The notes beneath the pieces were generated by a model. The model saw only the letters and a program-made list of their open reading frames with translations. It was not told the DNA's origin and ran no database searches. Shown here one piece after another: positions 7,018 to 18,201 of a DNA stretch of 21,286 nt; position 1 is the stretch's first letter; each line of letters begins with the position of its first letter. This DNA is from a virus: positions 1 through 21,286 of the IMG/VR virus record IMGVR_UViG_3300042691_022215. One strand, written 5' to 3'. Made by a program: the position numbers and the translations under genes.

Positions 7018-9254
7018 AGCAAGTAATCAATCCTATCCAGTTTTTTGCAGACTCGCGCGGGTTGCCGCTTGATGCTGGATATGTGTATATCGGACAGCCG
7101 AACCTAAATCCAATTACAAATCCAATCACTGTATATTTTGATGCGGCCCTGACAATTCCCGCCGCGCAGCCGCTTCGCACCCTTGCTGGTCGTATTGTCC
7201 GCAATGGTGCCCCGTCTATTCTTTATACAAGCCTTGAATCTTATTCAATGGTAGTAAAGGACAAAAACGGGGTAACGCTCATCAATATTCCAGATGCGTC
7301 TGGAGATTCTAATCTCGCCACATTGCTTGCGCAGAATACTGGTGCAGGTCTTATTGGTCACGGCTTTACAGTTAACTACGCTTTGGGAACTGTTGGGCGT
7401 GCGATCAATGATCTGTGCTTTCAGGTGCATGACACTGGCACCGCTGCCGGTAATTGCGCAGCGATCAATGCAGCAATCGCGTTCGTAAGCGCTGGCACTA
7501 ATATTTATTTGCCAGATGCAATGGATTTGGATAGCACGGTGACAATTAATGTCAACAAGGCTATTACCATCAGAGGCAACCCCAACAAGAAACTTCGTTT
7601 TACAAGCACTGTTGGCTCTGGAGTTTTGCCGATCAATATTACAGCTTCTGGGGCTGTAATTGAGGATTGCTGGTTTAGCGGTGAATTGATTGTTAATACA
7701 AACAATCCACTTGATACGGTCTATTACATTAGATCAGATGTATCTGGAGCCACTATTAGGAATAACAGATTTACAGACTTCCCTGTTTATCGAGTTCCTG
7801 CCGTCAGCCTAAAAGAAGACACTTCTCTAAACACAAATGATTGGTTTGTGTTTGAGGGAAACTATTGCCGCAATACTGGCGGCGGCGTGCTTACTGTCAC
7901 CAGTAATAGCCGCATCGTCAATAATTCTTTTTTTGAATCCACTGATACGGCCATTGCTATCAATGGCATGGGCGCACGCCACACGACCGGCGCCGTGATC
8001 GTCGGCAATGTCATCGTGACAAATGCCAAGGTGGGGCCTTACCTGATCGCTATTGAGGGGTCGGCAGATCAAACCATTACCGGCAACTATGTTCATAGCG
8101 CCTATGGACAGGCTCTGTCTGCGATTGACGTTGACCCAGGTACGCAAACCGCCGAGAAGCTTGGCGTTATTAGCGGCAATGTTTTCCGTTGTGAGACTAC
8201 GGCAGACACTGATCCGCGCACTTTGGTTCAGATTGGCGCCTTCTACTACGATGGCTCAATCACTGGCAATGCATTCCGAGGAGCGCCTGGAGTCGGGACA
8301 AATGCTTCCCAACTGCTTGTTTCGCTTGGCAATCACCTGGTGTCAGGAAACGATTTTGATACGGGCCATACGCCTACCGCAAACGCTTATGCGGTGATTG
8401 ACTATCAACCCGCGTCCGTTGCTGGAATGCTTAACGTTCGCGGGAATACCATCACAACCACGCGAGCAGCCCGCGCAATTGGGTCAACATTTACCGGCAA
8501 TTTTTCCAGTGGCTCAAACCTATTTTTCAGCGATAACGCGCTGATTAATGGGGGGGCTTTCTGCTCAATCATGGTTGATGCACCGGCCAACGGCGCAGCA
8601 GTGGACCCAAATCTAGCTGAGTGCTTCGGGAATACGGTTATTGGAACTGCAATCCCAACCATGATTAATGGTTTGGTGTTTAATTCCCAATTGCAGCACT
8701 ATGGCCGAGATAGTGTTATGTTTTCTGGCGTTGGGTCTGCTGGTCGAACGGTTCGCTCCCCCGCTTCATTTACCGGCATCAATTACTACTCCGACAGTAT
8801 TACCGCCGCAGGTACTGGCTGGCGGCATCTTTCTTGCACATCCAGCACGGGCGGGACTGAAAACCTTGCGATTCTGGGTAATGGCAACGTGCAAAACGCC
8901 AACAACAGCTACGGCGCTTTGTCTGATATTAAGCTCAAGCAAGACATTGTTGATGCAGGTTCACAGTGGGGCGATATTAAAGCATTGCGCCTTCGCAAAT
9001 ATCGATTCAAAAACAACCCAACAGGCCCGCTACAAATTGGCCTGATTGCTCAAGAGGCAGAAATCACAAGCCCCGGTTTGATTGATGAAACGCCTGATTC
9101 TGTCGTCTCTAATGGTGAAGTTACGCAGACCGGCGAGACAACCAAAACCATTAAATACAGTGTGCTTTACATGAAAGCGGTCGGCGCACTGCAAGAAGCC
9201 ATGCAGCGAATTGAATCGCTTGAGGCAAAGATTGACGCACTAACAAAGAACTGA
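7014..9254 (+). CDS. tailspike: P22-type head-binding domain, beta-helix, S74 chaperone
   Basis: 746 aa. Residues 1-105 match the P22 tailspike head-binding domain in plan (NPIQFFADSRGLPLDAGYVYIGQ, a QPL-AGRIV-NG core, then LESYSMVVKDKNG). Residues about 165-530 are a ladder of parallel beta-helix rungs (IRNNRF, IVNNSF, IVGNVI, ITGNYV, ISGNVF, ITGNAF, VSGNDF, VRGNTI). Residues 637-746 are a peptidase S74 intramolecular chaperone: SDIKLK gives the Ser637/Lys642 pair with the five-residue spacing of the catalytic dyad, and cleavage is expected just before Ser637. The released domain ends in a coiled coil (ALQEAMQRIESLEAKIDAL). The spike binds and probably degrades a host surface polysaccharide; the substrate is not readable. 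It overlaps the gp16 stop and the endolysin start. Confidence 0.9.
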   Translation: MKQVINPIQFFADSRGLPLDAGYVYIGQPNLNPITNPITVYFDAALTIPAAQPLRTLAGRIVRNGAPSILYTSLESYSMVVKDKNGVTLINIPDASGDSNLATLLAQNTGAGLIGHGFTVNYALGTVGRAINDLCFQVHDTGTAAGNCAAINAAIAFVSAGTNIYLPDAMDLDSTVTINVNKAITIRGNPNKKLRFTSTVGSGVLPINITASGAVIEDCWFSGELIVNTNNPLDTVYYIRSDVSGATIRNNRFTDFPVYRVPAVSLKEDTSLNTNDWFVFEGNYCRNTGGGVLTVTSNSRIVNNSFFESTDTAIAINGMGARHTTGAVIVGNVIVTNAKVGPYLIAIEGSADQTITGNYVHSAYGQALSAIDVDPGTQTAEKLGVISGNVFRCETTADTDPRTLVQIGAFYYDGSITGNAFRGAPGVGTNASQLLVSLGNHLVSGNDFDTGHTPTANAYAVIDYQPASVAGMLNVRGNTITTTRAARAIGSTFTGNFSSGSNLFFSDNALINGGAFCSIMVDAPANGAAVDPNLAECFGNTVIGTAIPTMINGLVFNSQLQHYGRDSVMFSGVGSAGRTVRSPASFTGINYYSDSITAAGTGWRHLSCTSSTGGTENLAILGNGNVQNANNSYGALSDIKLKQDIVDAGSQWGDIKALRLRKYRFKNNPTGPLQIGLIAQEAEITSPGLIDETPDSVVSNGEVTQTGETTKTIKYSVLYMKAVGALQEAMQRIESLEAKIDALTKN

Positions 9255-13600: not shown

Positions 13601-13951
13601 ATGGCAATTTCAGCCGCAAAACGCGCTCGCGTTTATGCAAGGGATCGTTTCATTTGCCAATATTGTGGGAATTGCCCAGATTTGTCTGAGCTGACAATAG
13701 ACCACGTTATCTCAAAGATAAGCGGCGGTCGCAATGGCGATGACAACCTAAAAACATGTTGCAGGACATGCAACATAACAAAAGGAAAGCGGCCAATTGA
13801 ATGGCTGCGAAAGCACTTTTCCATTGCATCAAGCAAATATGCAGGGCTAATGAGCGTGCAGCAGTGGGATGCTCTAGTTAATGCTGGCGCTGAATTTGGC
13901 GAAATCCATCGCTATGTCTTTTGGTTTGAGCGCATGGAGGCTGGCAAATGA
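13601..13951 (+). CDS. HNH endonuclease
   Basis: 116 aa from ATG 13601, with AGGAAGG ten bases upstream. The frame is open back to 13466, but that extra stretch overlaps the structured region and has no HNH-like sequence. The core is typical: ARDRFICQYCG (zinc Cys19, Cys22), LTIDHVISKISGG (Asp34-His35, metal and catalytic), DDNLKTCCRTCNITKG (Asn49, Cys54, Cys57), with the second His of HNH replaced as is common in this subgroup. Such enzymes nick or cut DNA with a divalent metal. In phages they serve as homing, packaging or recombination nucleases. Lying next to a structured stretch and at a split gene, a homing role is possible; the next gene overlaps its stop. Confidence 0.88.
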   Translation: MAISAAKRARVYARDRFICQYCGNCPDLSELTIDHVISKISGGRNGDDNLKTCCRTCNITKGKRPIEWLRKHFSIASSKYAGLMSVQQWDALVNAGAEFGEIHRYVFWFERMEAGK

Positions 13952-14649
13952 TCCACTCGTTTGACGTTGATATCGCCACTGAACACGGCGTCGAGTGCGC
14001 CATCATGCTGGCGAACATTGAGTTCTGGGTAGCCAAGAACAAGGCTAACCGCAAGCACTTCCACAAGGGACGGTACTGGACCTACAACAGCATCAAGGCA
14101 TGGGCAGAGCTGTTTCCGTACTGGAGTTCTGACAAGGTGCGAAGGGTTCTAGAAAGGCTAGAAGAGCGCGGTCTTGTCGTCTCCGACAACTTCAATTCTT
14201 CTGGCTATGACCGCACAAAGTGGTACACGTTGTCTTGTGATTCTTGCCAAATCGATTTGGCAAATTTGCCAAATGGAAGTGGCGAATCTGCCAAATCACT
14301 AATAAGAACAGATAGTAAACCAGATACAAAAAGCGCAACCAAAGACCGAGCCACCTCCGGTGACTCTGAGCAGTACGAAGAGAGCTTTCTAGAGTTCTGG
14401 AAAAACTGGCCTACTAACAAGCGCAAAGGCTCTAAGCCTCAATGTGGAGCGTTCTGGAAGAGGAAGAAGCTACATCTCAAGACAAAACAAATTCTTGAGC
14501 ATGTGAACCTGATGAAGAATAGCCACGACTGGACGAAGGACAACGGACAGTACATGCCAGCACCACTAACCTACCTTCACCAGATGCGCTGGGAAGGTGC
14601 CGAACCTACTCAAGACCAAAAAGAGAACAAGTGGGCTGGTGCGATATGA
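13948..14649 (+). CDS. replication initiator, lambda O-like layout
   Basis: 233 aa; ATG overlaps the HNH stop (ATGA). Residues 1-95 form a winged helix (WTYNSIKAWAELFPYWSSDK, VRRVLERLEERGLVVSDNF), the DNA-binding domain. Residues 96-138 are a polar linker whose DNA carries the iteron array. Residues 145-222 match the C-terminal domain of many phage initiators (FLEFWKNWPTNKRKGSKPQC, FWKRKKL, then MPAPLTYLHQMRWEG), the region that recruits the helicase or its loader. Order and layout equal lambda O: a DNA-binding head, an origin inside the gene, a protein-contact tail. A DnaB-like helicase gene follows two genes downstream. The assignment as initiator is strong; the exact family name is less sure. 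Confidence 0.83.
   Translation: MIHSFDVDIATEHGVECAIMLANIEFWVAKNKANRKHFHKGRYWTYNSIKAWAELFPYWSSDKVRRVLERLEERGLVVSDNFNSSGYDRTKWYTLSCDSCQIDLANLPNGSGESAKSLIRTDSKPDTKSATKDRATSGDSEQYEESFLEFWKNWPTNKRKGSKPQCGAFWKRKKLHLKTKQILEHVNLMKNSHDWTKDNGQYMPAPLTYLHQMRWEGAEPTQDQKENKWAGAI
14244..14335 (+). other. ori: replication origin: iterons and A+T-rich stretch inside the initiator gene
   Basis: TTGCCAAAT stands at 14244-14252 and 14266-14274, CTGCCAAAT at 14288-14296, an exact 22-bp period, with an inverted copy ATTTGGCAA at 14255-14263. Directly after the last repeat lies an A-rich stretch (14297-14335) that could open as the unwinding element. Position inside the initiator gene, at the linker between its two domains, is that of lambda ori in gene O. 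Confidence 0.72.
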
Positions 14650-14975
14650 ACGGACTGGACTGGCTCAAGAAGGTGCGTAAGAAACGGCTAAAACCGCCCT
14701 ACGTTTCGATTTCAGACCGACACTATGACGAGACCTTCACCCCGGAATATTTAGAGCCTACAAACGGCGATTGTCCGAGCACTGGGGATTGGCGGATCTT
14801 CTACGGACTGTTCGTGGTAGTTGACTCTCAAGACCCTGCATTTGTAGAGAAGTGGGCAAGAGCAGTCTTGAAGGCTAAAGCCGACACAGTGCTAGGGATG
14901 GTCTGGAAGATCGACAAGCACGGCGACATTCACGCAAAACACACAACCTACAGACTCTACGGAATAGACCAATGA
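14646..14975 (+). CDS. hypothetical protein, 109 aa, between initiator and helicase
   Basis: ATG 14646 overlaps the initiator stop (ATGA); an ATG at 14631 in the same frame is less likely. The protein begins basic (LDWLKKVRKKRLKPPYVSI), then holds a compact alpha/beta segment (GDWRIFYGLFVVVDSQDPAF, VEKWARAVLKAKADTVLGMV) and ends in HAKHTTYRLYGIDQ. I do not recognise a family. Its place between initiator and helicase, where lambda encodes the loader P, makes a helicase-loading or accessory replication role possible, but the sequence has no P-loop or known loader motif. Confidence 0.72.
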   Translation: MNGLDWLKKVRKKRLKPPYVSISDRHYDETFTPEYLEPTNGDCPSTGDWRIFYGLFVVVDSQDPAFVEKWARAVLKAKADTVLGMVWKIDKHGDIHAKHTTYRLYGIDQ

Positions 14976-15931
14976 ACCTTATTCCTGACACGATCAATTG
15001 GGCGGACTACGAGAAGGAAACCGAAGAGGCTGCAAAGATCAGACCGGCCTCGGATTTCCTGGATGTGATGATTGCCCAGGTAGGAGAACCGGAGGAATCA
15101 GAGCCTAAGTGCTATCTGCCTTGGGACAAGACTCATGAATACTTTGCTTTCCGTCAGGGCGAAGTGACGCTATGGGCTGGCGTGAACGGACACGGCAAAT
15201 CGCTAGTGACCGGCATGGCTTCTGTCTCTATGATTGTTCAAAACGAGAAAGTCTGTATTGCCTCGTTTGAAATGAAGCCGCGCAAGACCCTGCGACGGAT
15301 GGCTACTCAATTCATGGGCCAGTCAACCACGCCCCACCATCCAGACGAAATCCCGCTTGTCCGGGAGGTTCTAGACCAGTTCCGGGGGCTCTGCACTGAT
15401 CGGCTGTGGGTCTATGACCAGCAAGGCACAGTGACTCCTGAGCGAGTGATAGCAGTTACACGCTACTGCTTCAAAGAGCTAGGCATCAAGCACATGTTCA
15501 TCGACTCGCTTATGAAGTGTGTCAAGGGGGAGGACGACTACAACGGCCAGAAAGCTCTGCTGGATGAGCTGTGTGCATTGGCACGGGATCACTCGGCACA
15601 CATTCACCTTGTTCACCATCTGCGCAAGAGTGGCAAGGAAACCGACCAGCCGGACAAGAACGATGTGAAAGGTTCCGGTTCGATCACCGACCAAGTGGAC
15701 AACCTTCTATTGGTTTGGCGCAACAAGCAGAAGGAAATGGACTACGGAACCGGCAAGCAGGTAGATCCTCTAGACCCTGATGTGATCCTGTTCTGCCGCA
15801 AACAACGGAACGGAACCGGATGGGAGGGCGCAATCAAGCTCTACTTCAACTCTCGGTCAATGCAGTACACGGCGAACCCTGGCTACAACATCGATCTTTT
15901 TTCGTGGCCTCACAGAGAGACACAAGGGTAA
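14972..15931 (+). CDS. DnaB-type replicative helicase, RecA-like domain
   Basis: 319 aa; ATG overlaps the previous stop. The RecA-like core is complete: Walker A GVNGHGKS (residues 70-77), the SFEM motif with catalytic Glu100 (SLEM in DnaB), Walker B HMFIDSL (Asp178), LVHHLRK (213-219), the GSGSITDQVDNLLLVWR segment (234-250) and CRKQRNGTGWEG (275-286) with the arginine-finger-like RN. It lacks the usual DnaB N-terminal domain and any primase or Toprim domain, so it resembles the C-terminal helicase half of DnaB or T7 gp4. It should unwind DNA 5'-3' as a hexamer ahead of the fork. The stop TAA lies inside the palindrome of the next regulatory module. Confidence 0.9.
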   Translation: MNLIPDTINWADYEKETEEAAKIRPASDFLDVMIAQVGEPEESEPKCYLPWDKTHEYFAFRQGEVTLWAGVNGHGKSLVTGMASVSMIVQNEKVCIASFEMKPRKTLRRMATQFMGQSTTPHHPDEIPLVREVLDQFRGLCTDRLWVYDQQGTVTPERVIAVTRYCFKELGIKHMFIDSLMKCVKGEDDYNGQKALLDELCALARDHSAHIHLVHHLRKSGKETDQPDKNDVKGSGSITDQVDNLLLVWRNKQKEMDYGTGKQVDPLDPDVILFCRKQRNGTGWEGAIKLYFNSRSMQYTANPGYNIDLFSWPHRETQG

Positions 15932-15990: not shown

Positions 15991-18201
15991 ATGGACTATC
16001 AATCATTTGTCCAAGCCAAGCGCCGCCGCGAGATTCCTACGGGCCACAATCCTGGCGAGCTTAACGAAAACCTGTTCGACTTTCAGCATGCGATTGTTAG
16101 CTGGGCCGTCCGTCGCGGGCGTGCTGCGATCTTTGCTGATACCGGACTCGGCAAGACCTTGATGCAGCTTTCCTGGGCTGATGAGGTTCACTCTCACACT
16201 GGCGGCAAGGTTCTTGTTCTTGCTCCGCTGGCCGTGAGTGAACAAACCATCGAACAGGGATTGACATTTGGCATTGAAGTGAAGCGAGTCCCGCAAGGGT
16301 GCGACATTCCTGGCCCTGGCGTCTGGATCACGAACTATGAGCGGATGGACTCGATCAATTTCGATGACCTGACCGGCCTTGTGCTGGATGAGTCCTCAAT
16401 CCTCAAGGCTCATGACGGAAAGACACGACAGGCCATCATTGACGCCGCTCAGTCGATCCCGTATCGCCTTAGCTGCACAGCCACTCCTAGCCCTAACGAT
16501 TTCGACGAGCTTGGGAATCAATGCGAATTCTTGGGCGTGATGACCCGCACGGAAATGCTTGCCACGTATTTCGTGAACGACACGGGAGACACGGGAACAT
16601 GGATTCTCAAGGGTTGGGGAAAGTCTCGATTCTGGGAATGGATGGGTTCTTGGGCTGTTGTCGTCCGCAATCCGTCTGATATTGGATTTGATGGCTCACG
16701 CTATGAGCTGCCGGGATTGGAGTATGTCGAGCACGTAATCGAAACAGACGCAACGCCTGATGGCGAGTTGTTCGCCCGTCCTGCTCAATCTTTGGCTGAA
16801 CGACGCAAGGCACAGCGCGACAGCTTGGAAGCCCGATGCAAGGCACTTGCCGAGCTGGTGAACTCTCAACCCGATGAACCGTGGCTGATTTGGTGCCATC
16901 TGAATGATGAAGCCGATTTGCTGCAATCGCTGATTCCCGGATCAGTGAACGTGCAAGGATCTGATGCGCCGGAAACCAAGGCAAAGAATCTGCTCGGTTT
17001 CGCTCATGGCGATGTGCGAGTCTTGATTAGCAAGCCAAAGATCGCCGGGTATGGAATGAATTGGCAACACTGCGCCCGCATGGCTTTTGTTGGCCTAGAT
17101 GACTCATTTGAGAAGTTCTATCAAGCTGTCCGCCGTTGCTTCAGATTCGGCCAGAAGCGCAAGGTGATCGTGCATCTGTTCACTGCCGAGAATGAAGGCC
17201 AGATTCTGCGCAACCTCAAGCGCAAGGAAGAACAACATCACGAAATGAGCGCCAACATGGTTGGCCACATGAAAGACATTATGAACAACGAATTGAAAGG
17301 GGTTGAGAACGTGGTAGACGAATACAAAGAGGATGTTTACAAGGGTGACGGTTTTACGGTCTATCTGGGTGACTGTGTAAAACATGCATCCAAGTTCGAG
17401 GCAGACAGCATTGATTACTCGATCTTCTCGCCGCCGTTTGCTGATCTGTTTGTGTACTCCAATTCAGACCATGACATGGGTAACTGCCGCGACGATGCCG
17501 AGTTCGCTGCACAGTTCCGATTCTTGGTGAAGGAGCTGTATCGAGTCCTCAAGCCTGGGCGCAATGTCTCTTTCCATTGCATGAACCTGCCAACAACCAA
17601 GATGCGCCAAGGTTTCATTGGGATTCGTGACTTCCGAGGCGACCTGATCCGCACGTTCCAAGACGAGGGATTTATCTATCACTCCGAAGTGTGCATCTGG
17701 AAAGACCCAGTTGTTGCAATGCAGCGAACAAAAGCACTCGGACTTCTGCACAAGACTATCCGCGAGAATTCCACGATGACCCGCATGGGCCTGCCTGACT
17801 ATGTGGTGACGATGCGCAAGCCGGGAGACTGCGAAGAGCGTGTAACTCACGACGGGATCAACGATCTGCCGGTAGACCTGTGGCAGAAATACGCAAGTCC
17901 GGTCTGGTTTGACATTGACCAGGGTCGCACACTGAACAAGATGCCAGCCCGCGATGAGAACGACCAAAAGCACATGTGCCCGCTTCAGCTTGATGTGATC
18001 GAGCGATGCATTCACTTGTGGACGAACAAGGGGGATCTGGTGTTTAGTCCGTTTACCGGGATCGGATCGGAGGGCTATACGTCTGTTCGCATGGGCCGTC
18101 GATTCGTCGGGACTGAACTCAAGCCCCAATACTGGGAGCTTGCTTGCCAGAACATCGAGGATGCATCCAAGGAACAACAGGGCTTGTTTGCTGGTCTGTG
18201 A
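15991..18201 (+). CDS. fused SNF2-type helicase and DNA methyltransferase
   Basis: 736 aa, AAGGAGAG upstream. Residues 1-440 form an SF2/SNF2-like ATPase: Walker A ADTGLGKT (49-56), VLDESS in place of DEAH (131-136), TATPSPND (163-170), and motif VI QAVRRCFRFGQ (378-388) with arginine finger. Residues 445-736 form a DNA methyltransferase in beta-class order: catalytic SPPF (480-483) comes before the AdoMet-binding FSPFTGIGSEG (685-695). SPP is more usual in N4-cytosine enzymes than DPP, though adenine cannot be excluded; the first Asp of DPFxGxG is Ser here. It may coat phage DNA with methyl groups against restriction, using the motor to move along DNA. No nuclease domain is seen, so it is not a restriction enzyme. 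Confidence 0.88.
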   Translation: MDYQSFVQAKRRREIPTGHNPGELNENLFDFQHAIVSWAVRRGRAAIFADTGLGKTLMQLSWADEVHSHTGGKVLVLAPLAVSEQTIEQGLTFGIEVKRVPQGCDIPGPGVWITNYERMDSINFDDLTGLVLDESSILKAHDGKTRQAIIDAAQSIPYRLSCTATPSPNDFDELGNQCEFLGVMTRTEMLATYFVNDTGDTGTWILKGWGKSRFWEWMGSWAVVVRNPSDIGFDGSRYELPGLEYVEHVIETDATPDGELFARPAQSLAERRKAQRDSLEARCKALAELVNSQPDEPWLIWCHLNDEADLLQSLIPGSVNVQGSDAPETKAKNLLGFAHGDVRVLISKPKIAGYGMNWQHCARMAFVGLDDSFEKFYQAVRRCFRFGQKRKVIVHLFTAENEGQILRNLKRKEEQHHEMSANMVGHMKDIMNNELKGVENVVDEYKEDVYKGDGFTVYLGDCVKHASKFEADSIDYSIFSPPFADLFVYSNSDHDMGNCRDDAEFAAQFRFLVKELYRVLKPGRNVSFHCMNLPTTKMRQGFIGIRDFRGDLIRTFQDEGFIYHSEVCIWKDPVVAMQRTKALGLLHKTIRENSTMTRMGLPDYVVTMRKPGDCEERVTHDGINDLPVDLWQKYASPVWFDIDQGRTLNKMPARDENDQKHMCPLQLDVIERCIHLWTNKGDLVFSPFTGIGSEGYTSVRMGRRFVGTELKPQYWELACQNIEDASKEQQGLFAGL

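Follow-up and report, generated by a model that had tools for sequence, protein, structure and literature searches.

A probable phage replication origin embedded in its own initiator gene, with an 11-bp dyad ladder and a conserved 12-bp element

Introduction

To our knowledge, the origins of most phages are unmapped. The segment 14244-14333 studied here lies inside the gene for a phage replication initiator and combines a repeat array with an A-rich stretch. Is it the origin at which that initiator acts, a regulatory site, or a by-product of the protein that it encodes? The DNA analysed, called the window, comprises an entire IMG/VR virus record (21,286 bp), which is classed without completeness and is probably a fragment. 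We find that the segment is very probably a phage replication origin embedded in its own initiator gene, with binding, melting and loading inferred.

Results

The initiator and its gene neighbourhood

The initiator matches PHROG 11233 over residues 3-117 and PHROG 270 over residues 22-224, which are phage replication initiation profiles (Table 1). No Pfam model was found for the family, whose members are mostly annotated as "hypothetical" or as plain "replication protein". The Pfam DnaT DNA-binding domain (PF17948) is matched by 5 of 40 relatives (best E 2.5e-4) and not by the window protein, and the PadR score of the N-terminal domain is weak (E 0.064) and misses the Pfam cutoff. Searches of PDB sequences returned nothing beyond one chance match. 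In the fold comparison of the N-terminal domain, the plasmid initiator domains 4pql, 4pt7, 5kbj and 4pta rank on top (Z 9.3-10.6 over 87-92 residues); the next row has a Z of 8.8, and the Foldseek E is only 0.09.

In the predicted model, residues 1-96 are ordered, residues from about 101 to 140 are of low confidence (block pLDDT <=55) and helix is predicted again from 139. In the protein, the array and A-rich stretch correspond to residues 99-130, within this low-confidence linker. The claim of the initial annotation that the repeats coincide with the linker of the initiator is thus borne out.

The replicative helicase gene is located 0.3 kb downstream. Between the initiator and helicase genes lies a small gene (14646-14975) with overlapping start and stop codons (ATGA), for which no match was found in Pfam or PHROG. 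An HNH endonuclease gene (13610-13951) overlaps the start of the initiator gene, and this order of HNH and initiator genes is common to the window and phage BcepMigl. A single 736-aa gene (15991-18201) joins SNF2/DEAD-type helicase domains to an N6/N4 DNA methylase.

Table 1. Features of the initiator gene, the embedded segment and the helicase gene (positions in the window)
Feature	Position	Strand	Basis and remarks
Initiator gene	13948..14649	+	233 aa; PHROG 11233 E 5e-37, 270 E 5e-23, 6493 E 4e-19, 678 "replication initiation O-like" E 4e-11
Winged-helix DNA-binding domain, residues 1-96	13948..14235	+	predicted model, block pLDDT 82-98; nearest fold 4pql_B, Z 10.6, rmsd 3.0, 92 residues
Recognition helix, residues 61-73	14128..14166	+	predicted model and co-variation in relatives
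D62 and R65 codons	14131-14133, 14140-14142	+	helix positions co-varying with the iteron word in relatives
Half-site 1, TTGCCAAATCG, leading half iteron	14244..14254	+	sequence
Iteron 1, ATTTGGCAAAT (-) and TTGCCAAATGG (+)	14255..14276	+	sequence; dyad centre 14264.5
Iteron 2, degenerate AAGTGGCGAAT (-) and CTGCCAAATCA (+)	14277..14298	+	sequence; dyad centre 14286.5
Least stable 40-step stretch, putative DNA-unwinding element	14293..14333	.	nothing more unstable among 40-step regions of 21,286 bp
12-bp repeat 1, CAGATAGTAAAC	14309..14320	+	sequence match
12-bp repeat 2, CAGATACAAAAA	14321..14332	+	sequence match
Helical C-terminal region, residues 139-233	14362..14649	+	predicted model
DnaB/primase-helicase-type replicative helicase	14972..15931	+	319 aa; Pfam DnaB_C E 1e-13; PHROG 5482 E 2e-69, 239 E 3e-58

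The iteron array and the adjoining A+T-rich stretch

The array (14244-14298) consists of five blocks of 11 bp each, in the order TTGCCAAATCG / ATTTGGCAAAT / TTGCCAAATGG / AAGTGGCGAAT / CTGCCAAATCA and the orientation + - + - +, with dyad centres at 14253.5, 14264.5, 14275.5 and 14286.5. The initial annotation had placed TTGCCAAAT at 14244 and 14266, CTGCCAAAT at 14288 and an inverted copy at 14255, and these positions hold. It noticed four of the five blocks, missing the degenerate inverted copy AAGTGGCGAAT at 14277. Its exact two-turn period of 22 bp is real as a spacing and is refined here to five alternating 11-bp half-sites, 22 bp being two steps.

The 9-mer by itself is weak, with 14 one-mismatch matches in the window where 8.3 are expected. 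The clustering of the repeats is not chance: the repeat statistic is 6 for the array and at most 4 in 300 synonymous-codon shuffles, and the alternating-11 score is 49 (window, L081) and at most 40 in 500 codon-order shuffles. Positions 14255-14274 read as a perfect palindrome of 20 bp that has no second copy in the window, even with 3 mismatches allowed, and none of 100 dinucleotide shuffles yields a match. The exact 20-mer occurs in only three stretches of IMG/VR, two of them near-identical (L094 and L095), each in the linker of a homologous initiator of 40-51% identity. As 22 is not a multiple of 3, the array is not a protein repeat; that reading was rejected on the period together with the codon fixation and the frame shift of locus L070 described below.

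The A-rich stretch reported behind the repeats is real as well, the 40 nearest-neighbour steps from 14293 being the least stable in the record; when the span is widened to 60 or 100 steps, 4 or 2 other regions, respectively, are less stable. The least stable 40 bp directly follow the array and contain two 12-bp repeats (CAGATANNAAAN). Matches to CAGATANNAAA in the window are found only at 14309 and 14321, and none on the minus strand. The element is atypical in the window: the CCTATACC lead is missing, and 22.5 bp separate the first CAGATA from the last dyad centre, 6 bp more than the 16.5 bp in the consensus of the relatives.

Conservation of the array in relatives

Relatives were collected by a protein search without any DNA criterion, which gave 80 viral and 11 genome loci. 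Together with the window's copy and the three loci that carry the 20-mer, the set comprises 95 genes, which fall into 53 clusters, and into 50 when the window and the three motif-found loci are left out. A second scan of relatives, which used an alignment, yielded almost no contigs beyond those already in the set. Codons 85-190 were tested for the array against 500 codon-order shuffles. The initial annotation would have been refuted by relatives that have the same initiator without spaced repeats in the linker; an alternating 11-bp array is found at p<=0.05 in 47 of the 50 protein-found clusters, and at p<=0.01 in 44. The other three (L057, L087 and L090) have no significant array in codons 85-190. 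An earlier test, which counted repeated 9-mers de novo, gave a value above its 40 shuffles for only 14 of the 53 clusters (window included); it ignores the 11-bp phase and was superseded by the phased test.

In the groups of L087 and L090 (Megasphaera, Pectinatus, Propionispira, Megamonas) the initiators are longer, and their linker contains a long peptide that is repeated (DQSIGTKCPHE...). With no 11-bp array in codons 85-190, they perhaps carry another iteron type.

Forty-six relatives, the clusters that can be anchored at PIP codons, were pooled. Over the 66 bp before the 12-bp element, their identity is 0.659 at lag 22 and 0.632 at lag 44, compared with 0.453 (z 23) and 0.437 (z 22) in synonymous shuffles. 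The five best dyad centres, at -53.5, -42.5, -31.5, -20.5 and -9.5 from the element, form an exact 11-bp ladder. The 73 distinct arrays, which come from 107 anchored genes, protein-found and motif-found together, carry the words ATTTGCCC (as in L006), ATTTGGCA, ATTCAGCC, ATTGGTCA, ATTGGCGA, ATTTCGGA and others. Judged from these comparisons of sequence, the geometry and the distance to the 12-bp element are kept across relatives and the repeat word is not.

A 12-bp element fixed at the DNA level

The array of the 46 anchored genes is followed by CCTATACCAGATANTAAACCAGATANTAAA or a near form of it; the element is also written CCTATACCAGATANTAAA. This conserved element went unnoticed in the initial annotation and is new here. 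Its codons are fixed at synonymous sites: the Ile codon is ATA in 46/46 (background 0.32), the second Pro codon CCA in 46/46 (0.43), the Asp codon GAT in 88/88 (0.64) and the Lys codon AAA in 73/75 (0.58). A preference for A+T alone does not explain this, because ATT and CCT are avoided too: p is 3e-18 for 46/46 ATA where ATA or ATT would serve, and 2e-10 for 46/46 CCA where CCA or CCT would serve. The fixation holds in GC-rich genomes too. The A+T fraction of the relatives is 0.77, 0.83 and 0.72 over +10 to +39.

The pattern [CG]C[AT]ATAC[AC]A occurs within codons 86-200 in 48 of 50 clusters, with just two occurrences elsewhere in those genes; L087 and L090 have CCAATACCAGAG, but outside this range. 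Where CAGAT copies follow one another, 34 of the 44 spacings measure 12 bp. In L070, whose protein is 44% identical to that of L024 over 222 residues, the 12-mer CCTATACCAGAT stands in a different reading frame (HLYQIA). Out-of-frame CAGAT copies are not enriched (3 seen, 2.6 expected) and were dropped as evidence.

Two 25-base DNA patterns run over IMG/VR gave 61 and 9 stretches, and every one (61/61 and 9/9) falls at the linker position of an open reading frame and is read there in the PIPD frame. This was judged from the printed residues, with no profile run on all; for one (L101) the contig ends 8 codons upstream, and the DNA-binding domain is not visible. A third pattern matched 7 stretches and brought in no new contig. 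The matches to the element in L159, L164 and L165 were judged to be chance or unrelated.

Sixteen named phage and plasmid records were inspected besides lambda, Ld25A not being counted. The element is clear in elemoF, Vibrio 1.091.O and 1.213.O, BcepMigl (66% GC), Barc2635, phiLdb and H6/1 (as CCTATACCTGTTAGT). Variants occur in Staphylococcus warneri phage G30_01, plasmid pBVIE05 and Bacteroides phage C3_41T2LP, and Vibrio phage VH-8 and Psychrobacter phage D'Alembert have CCTATACAAGATAGTAAAAC without such an array. Among the named records, the element is absent from Geobacillus NIIg9.7, a Helicobacter prophage and Vibrio 1.112.O; lambda has no such element either. The codon-order test is weak on single named records, since the known iterons of lambda score p 0.15, and single-record p-values are not taken as absence of repeats in general. 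Short-query BLAST with the element returned 57 phage records, with Flavobacterium elemo phages and five Vibrio phages among them; many of the matches, at E 1-9, are chance ones (tail sheath, portal). In plasmids it returned 6 records, none on an annotated replication gene. The gene at 901-1749 of Bacteroides phage C3_41T2LP (L280) is annotated as "preneck appendage protein", yet it is a relative of the window initiator with CAGATA repeats in the linker.

Co-variation of the recognition helix with the iteron word

For 54 confident arrays, the similarity of iteron words was compared with identity at each column of the DNA-binding domain, after overall domain identity had been removed. The top four of 96 columns are 61, 64, 62 and 48, and columns 61, 64 and 62 fall in the model helix 61-73 (column n is window residue n+1 there). 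For 33 sequences below 60% identity, the correlation at column 61 (r 0.38) is reached by none of 1000 permutations, that at column 64 by 6 and that at column 48 by 9. From column 61, the base at half-site position 6 is predicted correctly in 40 of 49 cases using only relatives below 60% identity, compared with 27 by majority vote, 26 of 49 by the nearest three relatives and 25 of 43 by the next best column. At positions 5 and 7 the results are 34 of 43 (control 33) and 37 of 49 (control 32), gains so small that only the link of column 61 to position 6 is firm.

The window, which is outside the co-variation set, fits, with D62 (column 61) and G at position 6, and R65 (column 64) and G at position 5. 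Within the set, D at column 61 goes with G at 6 in 5/5 and R at column 64 with G at 5 in 23/23. By eye, L251 (D, GGGG) and L248, L249, L250 and L254-L256 (K, GCCC) fit as well; L252 is a contig already used, L253 (S) gives no clear reading and BcepMigl (R) departs from the usual A. The mutual-information ranking contained undefined values and was not used, only its count tables and the 33-sequence re-test. With the qualification that no tree entered the analysis, one recognition-helix position (D62 in the window) appears to track one iteron base.

Downstream genes, GC skew and limits of the group

Twenty downstream genes, chosen from 40 listed in relatives, were typed. Seven are DnaB-like, 1 is a primase-helicase, 1 is a PHROG 5482 helicase as in the window and 2 are lambda-P-like loaders; the remainder are 1 methyltransferase, 1 anti-restriction protein and 7 without any match. 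Annotated DnaC-like genes follow the initiator in BcepMigl and phiLdb, and a primase/helicase gene follows it in elemoF. The element thus occurs beside different helicase systems.

Cumulative GC skew in Barc2635 has its minimum at 23,033, 0.05 kb after the initiator gene (22,031-22,981), and all 67 genes of this phage are on one strand. The minimum in H6/1 is 1.7 kb from the initiator gene, but beside a gene-strand switch. Skew is uninformative in Vibrio phage 1.213.O, and no switch can be read in the 21-kb fragment that is the window.

Vibrio phage 1.213.O (L286) carries a gene of the window's initiator family at 8053-8799, among structural genes and far from a helicase. A second initiator-like gene (36298-37002) adjoins a DnaB-type helicase and has its own linker dyad repeats, of the GTGACANNTTGTCA type. 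Possibly, there are two origins in this one phage.

A scan of 199 genomes of the Psychrobacter vallis (L082) family found 8 with a match at E<=1e-8, and in one of these, the L082 genome, array and element are both present. In 8 other, distant homologous loci (7 genomes) the element is in none, and arrays are weak or absent (p 0.01-0.05 in three). On this comparative evidence, the type belongs to a clade and not to all such initiators.

Discussion

The computations reveal the anatomy of the segment, constraint at the DNA level, a conserved geometry, co-variation of helix and iteron, the lowest duplex stability of the record, and helicase or loader genes as neighbours in many relatives. The absence of binding, unwinding or replication data counts against reading it as an origin. 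So do the atypical element of the window, the three clusters without a significant array, the lack of such an array in VH-8 and D'Alembert, the distant loci without the element, the gene arrangement of phage 1.213.O and the typed downstream genes that are neither helicases nor loaders. The same dyad-symmetric half-sites and winged-helix protein would also suit a repressor, as would the weak PadR score, and no replication start has been mapped; the segment might then be an operator, where the initiator or another regulator binds the repeats and controls transcription of the replication genes while replication starts elsewhere. Its site, however, is 300 bp inside the gene and not at a promoter, the 12-bp element follows the array in relatives as the least stable DNA does in the window, a helicase or loader gene is often next, and the skew minimum of Barc2635 is at the initiator gene. 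We regard an operator as improbable. Still less credible, to the point of being nearly ruled out, is selection on the protein linker (the PIPDxKPDxK motif) with the DNA repeats as a by-product. The element does keep to one reading frame in nearly all clusters, and out-of-frame CAGAT is no commoner than expected, but the fixed synonymous sites, the other frame of CCTATACCAGAT in L070 and a 22-bp period that runs out of frame all contradict it.

It is also conceivable, if unlikely, that the segment is an origin of secondary or lysogenic use and that the main lytic start is elsewhere, given that the rest of the genome beyond this 21-kb fragment is unseen and that phage 1.213.O has two initiator-like genes. 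Against this, the 20-bp palindrome has no second copy in the window and the helicase gene is close by. A more serious possibility, to which we give a minority share of belief, leaves the array as the binding part of the origin and makes the 12-bp element a site for a host factor, such as a primase start, rather than an unwinding element read by the initiator. The proposed host primase site is the CTG of TATCTG on the lower strand, which we take to be a primase start trinucleotide. The element's company of DnaB helicases, primase-helicases and lambda-P-like or DnaC-like loaders would agree with this, as it makes the phage helicase an unlikely reader of the element. Opposed to it are the element's place in the least stable DNA of the window, its fixed distance from the array and the range of hosts (Burkholderia, Vibrio, Flavobacterium, Bacteroides, Lactobacillus), whose primases, we infer, need not share a start site.

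The reading that we prefer, and regard as very probable, is that of an origin embedded in the initiator gene. Its 11-bp half-sites of alternating orientation would be bound by the winged-helix domain, probably in the form of dimers that share one face of the helix, and the GG of ATTTGGCA would be read by residues D62 and R65 in the recognition helix. Once assembled, the array may strain the adjoining A+T-rich stretch until it opens. Opening and loading would take place at the 12-bp repeats, which the initiator or the helicase complex most likely keeps single-stranded, and the helicase encoded at 14972-15931 would be loaded there. Binding, bending, opening at the 12-mers, helicase loading, initiation and the role of the 12-mers are all inferred.

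As a wider proposal, which we hold tentatively and at slightly less than even chances, a single origin type is common to phages of Proteobacteria, Bacteroidetes and Firmicutes. Its dyads would stand on a strict 11-bp ladder, with a word that drifts along with one or two recognition-helix residues, and a constant distance would separate this ladder from a 12-bp opening sequence, CCAGATANTAAA, which hardly varies and is recognised single-stranded whichever helicase is loaded. If this is true, sequence alone could tell the origin type of a phage and its iteron word. For an initiator family without a Pfam model, origins would become predictable from the conserved opening element together with the protein-DNA co-variation, and origins of the window's type offer a direct test of how phage initiators open DNA. 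The literature searched, which did not cover most subscription papers, contained no description of a drifting word combined with a fixed ladder and a fixed opening element; TATACCAGATA and three related strings were in no paper there, and ACCAGATA was only in unrelated ones.

How does the segment compare with known origins? The initial annotation called it lambda-like, which stands for the layout and not for the family. The accessible portion of one source describes lambda ori as lying in the middle of gene O, with imperfect inverted-repeat iterons of about 19 bp and an adjoining AT-rich region needed for unwinding (PMC7466680). Likewise, the iterons of the window are tandem and dyad-symmetric, lie inside the initiator gene in the linker, and adjoin an A+T-rich region on their C-terminal side. 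Unlike lambda, whose iterons start 20, 24 and 23 bp apart by annotation, the window keeps its dyads on a strict 11-bp ladder, and lambda O has no CAGATA. As to family, Phage_rep_O (PF04492) matches neither the window protein (E<=1) nor any of 40 aligned relatives (E<=0.01), whereas lambda O itself, as a control, scores 123 bits; a profile comparison of lambda O with the initiator gave no alignment (hhalign probability 0.1). No structure of lambda O on its iterons has been solved, according to the part of a second source that was available (PMC10797057).

The same part of that source describes oriC 13-mers, DnaA-trios, RK2 13-mers and the V. cholerae ori2 repeats as short repeats in A+T-rich DNA beside the double-strand sites of the initiator (PMC10797057). 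Unlike these unwinding-element repeats, those of the window type are spaced at 12 bp, follow one consensus across phages of several phyla and lie within coding sequence. The RepA_N initiators of pSK41 and pTZ2162 and the RepA of PLE satellites have a winged-helix N-terminal domain of what may be the same fold class, given the weak Foldseek E. In pSK41, as far as the partly available source goes, the Rep boxes are inside the rep gene and the linker is dispensable as protein; the portions of the RepA_N sources at hand make no mention of a 12-bp element. The window differs from RepA_N systems in its phage setting with a helicase of its own and in having no Pfam match to RepA_N (PF06970), either in the window protein (E<=1) or in 40 aligned proteins (E<=0.01). 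By analogy, then, the segment is inferred to work like lambda ori and the in-gene origins of RepA_N plasmids, while by Pfam its initiator is a member of neither family.
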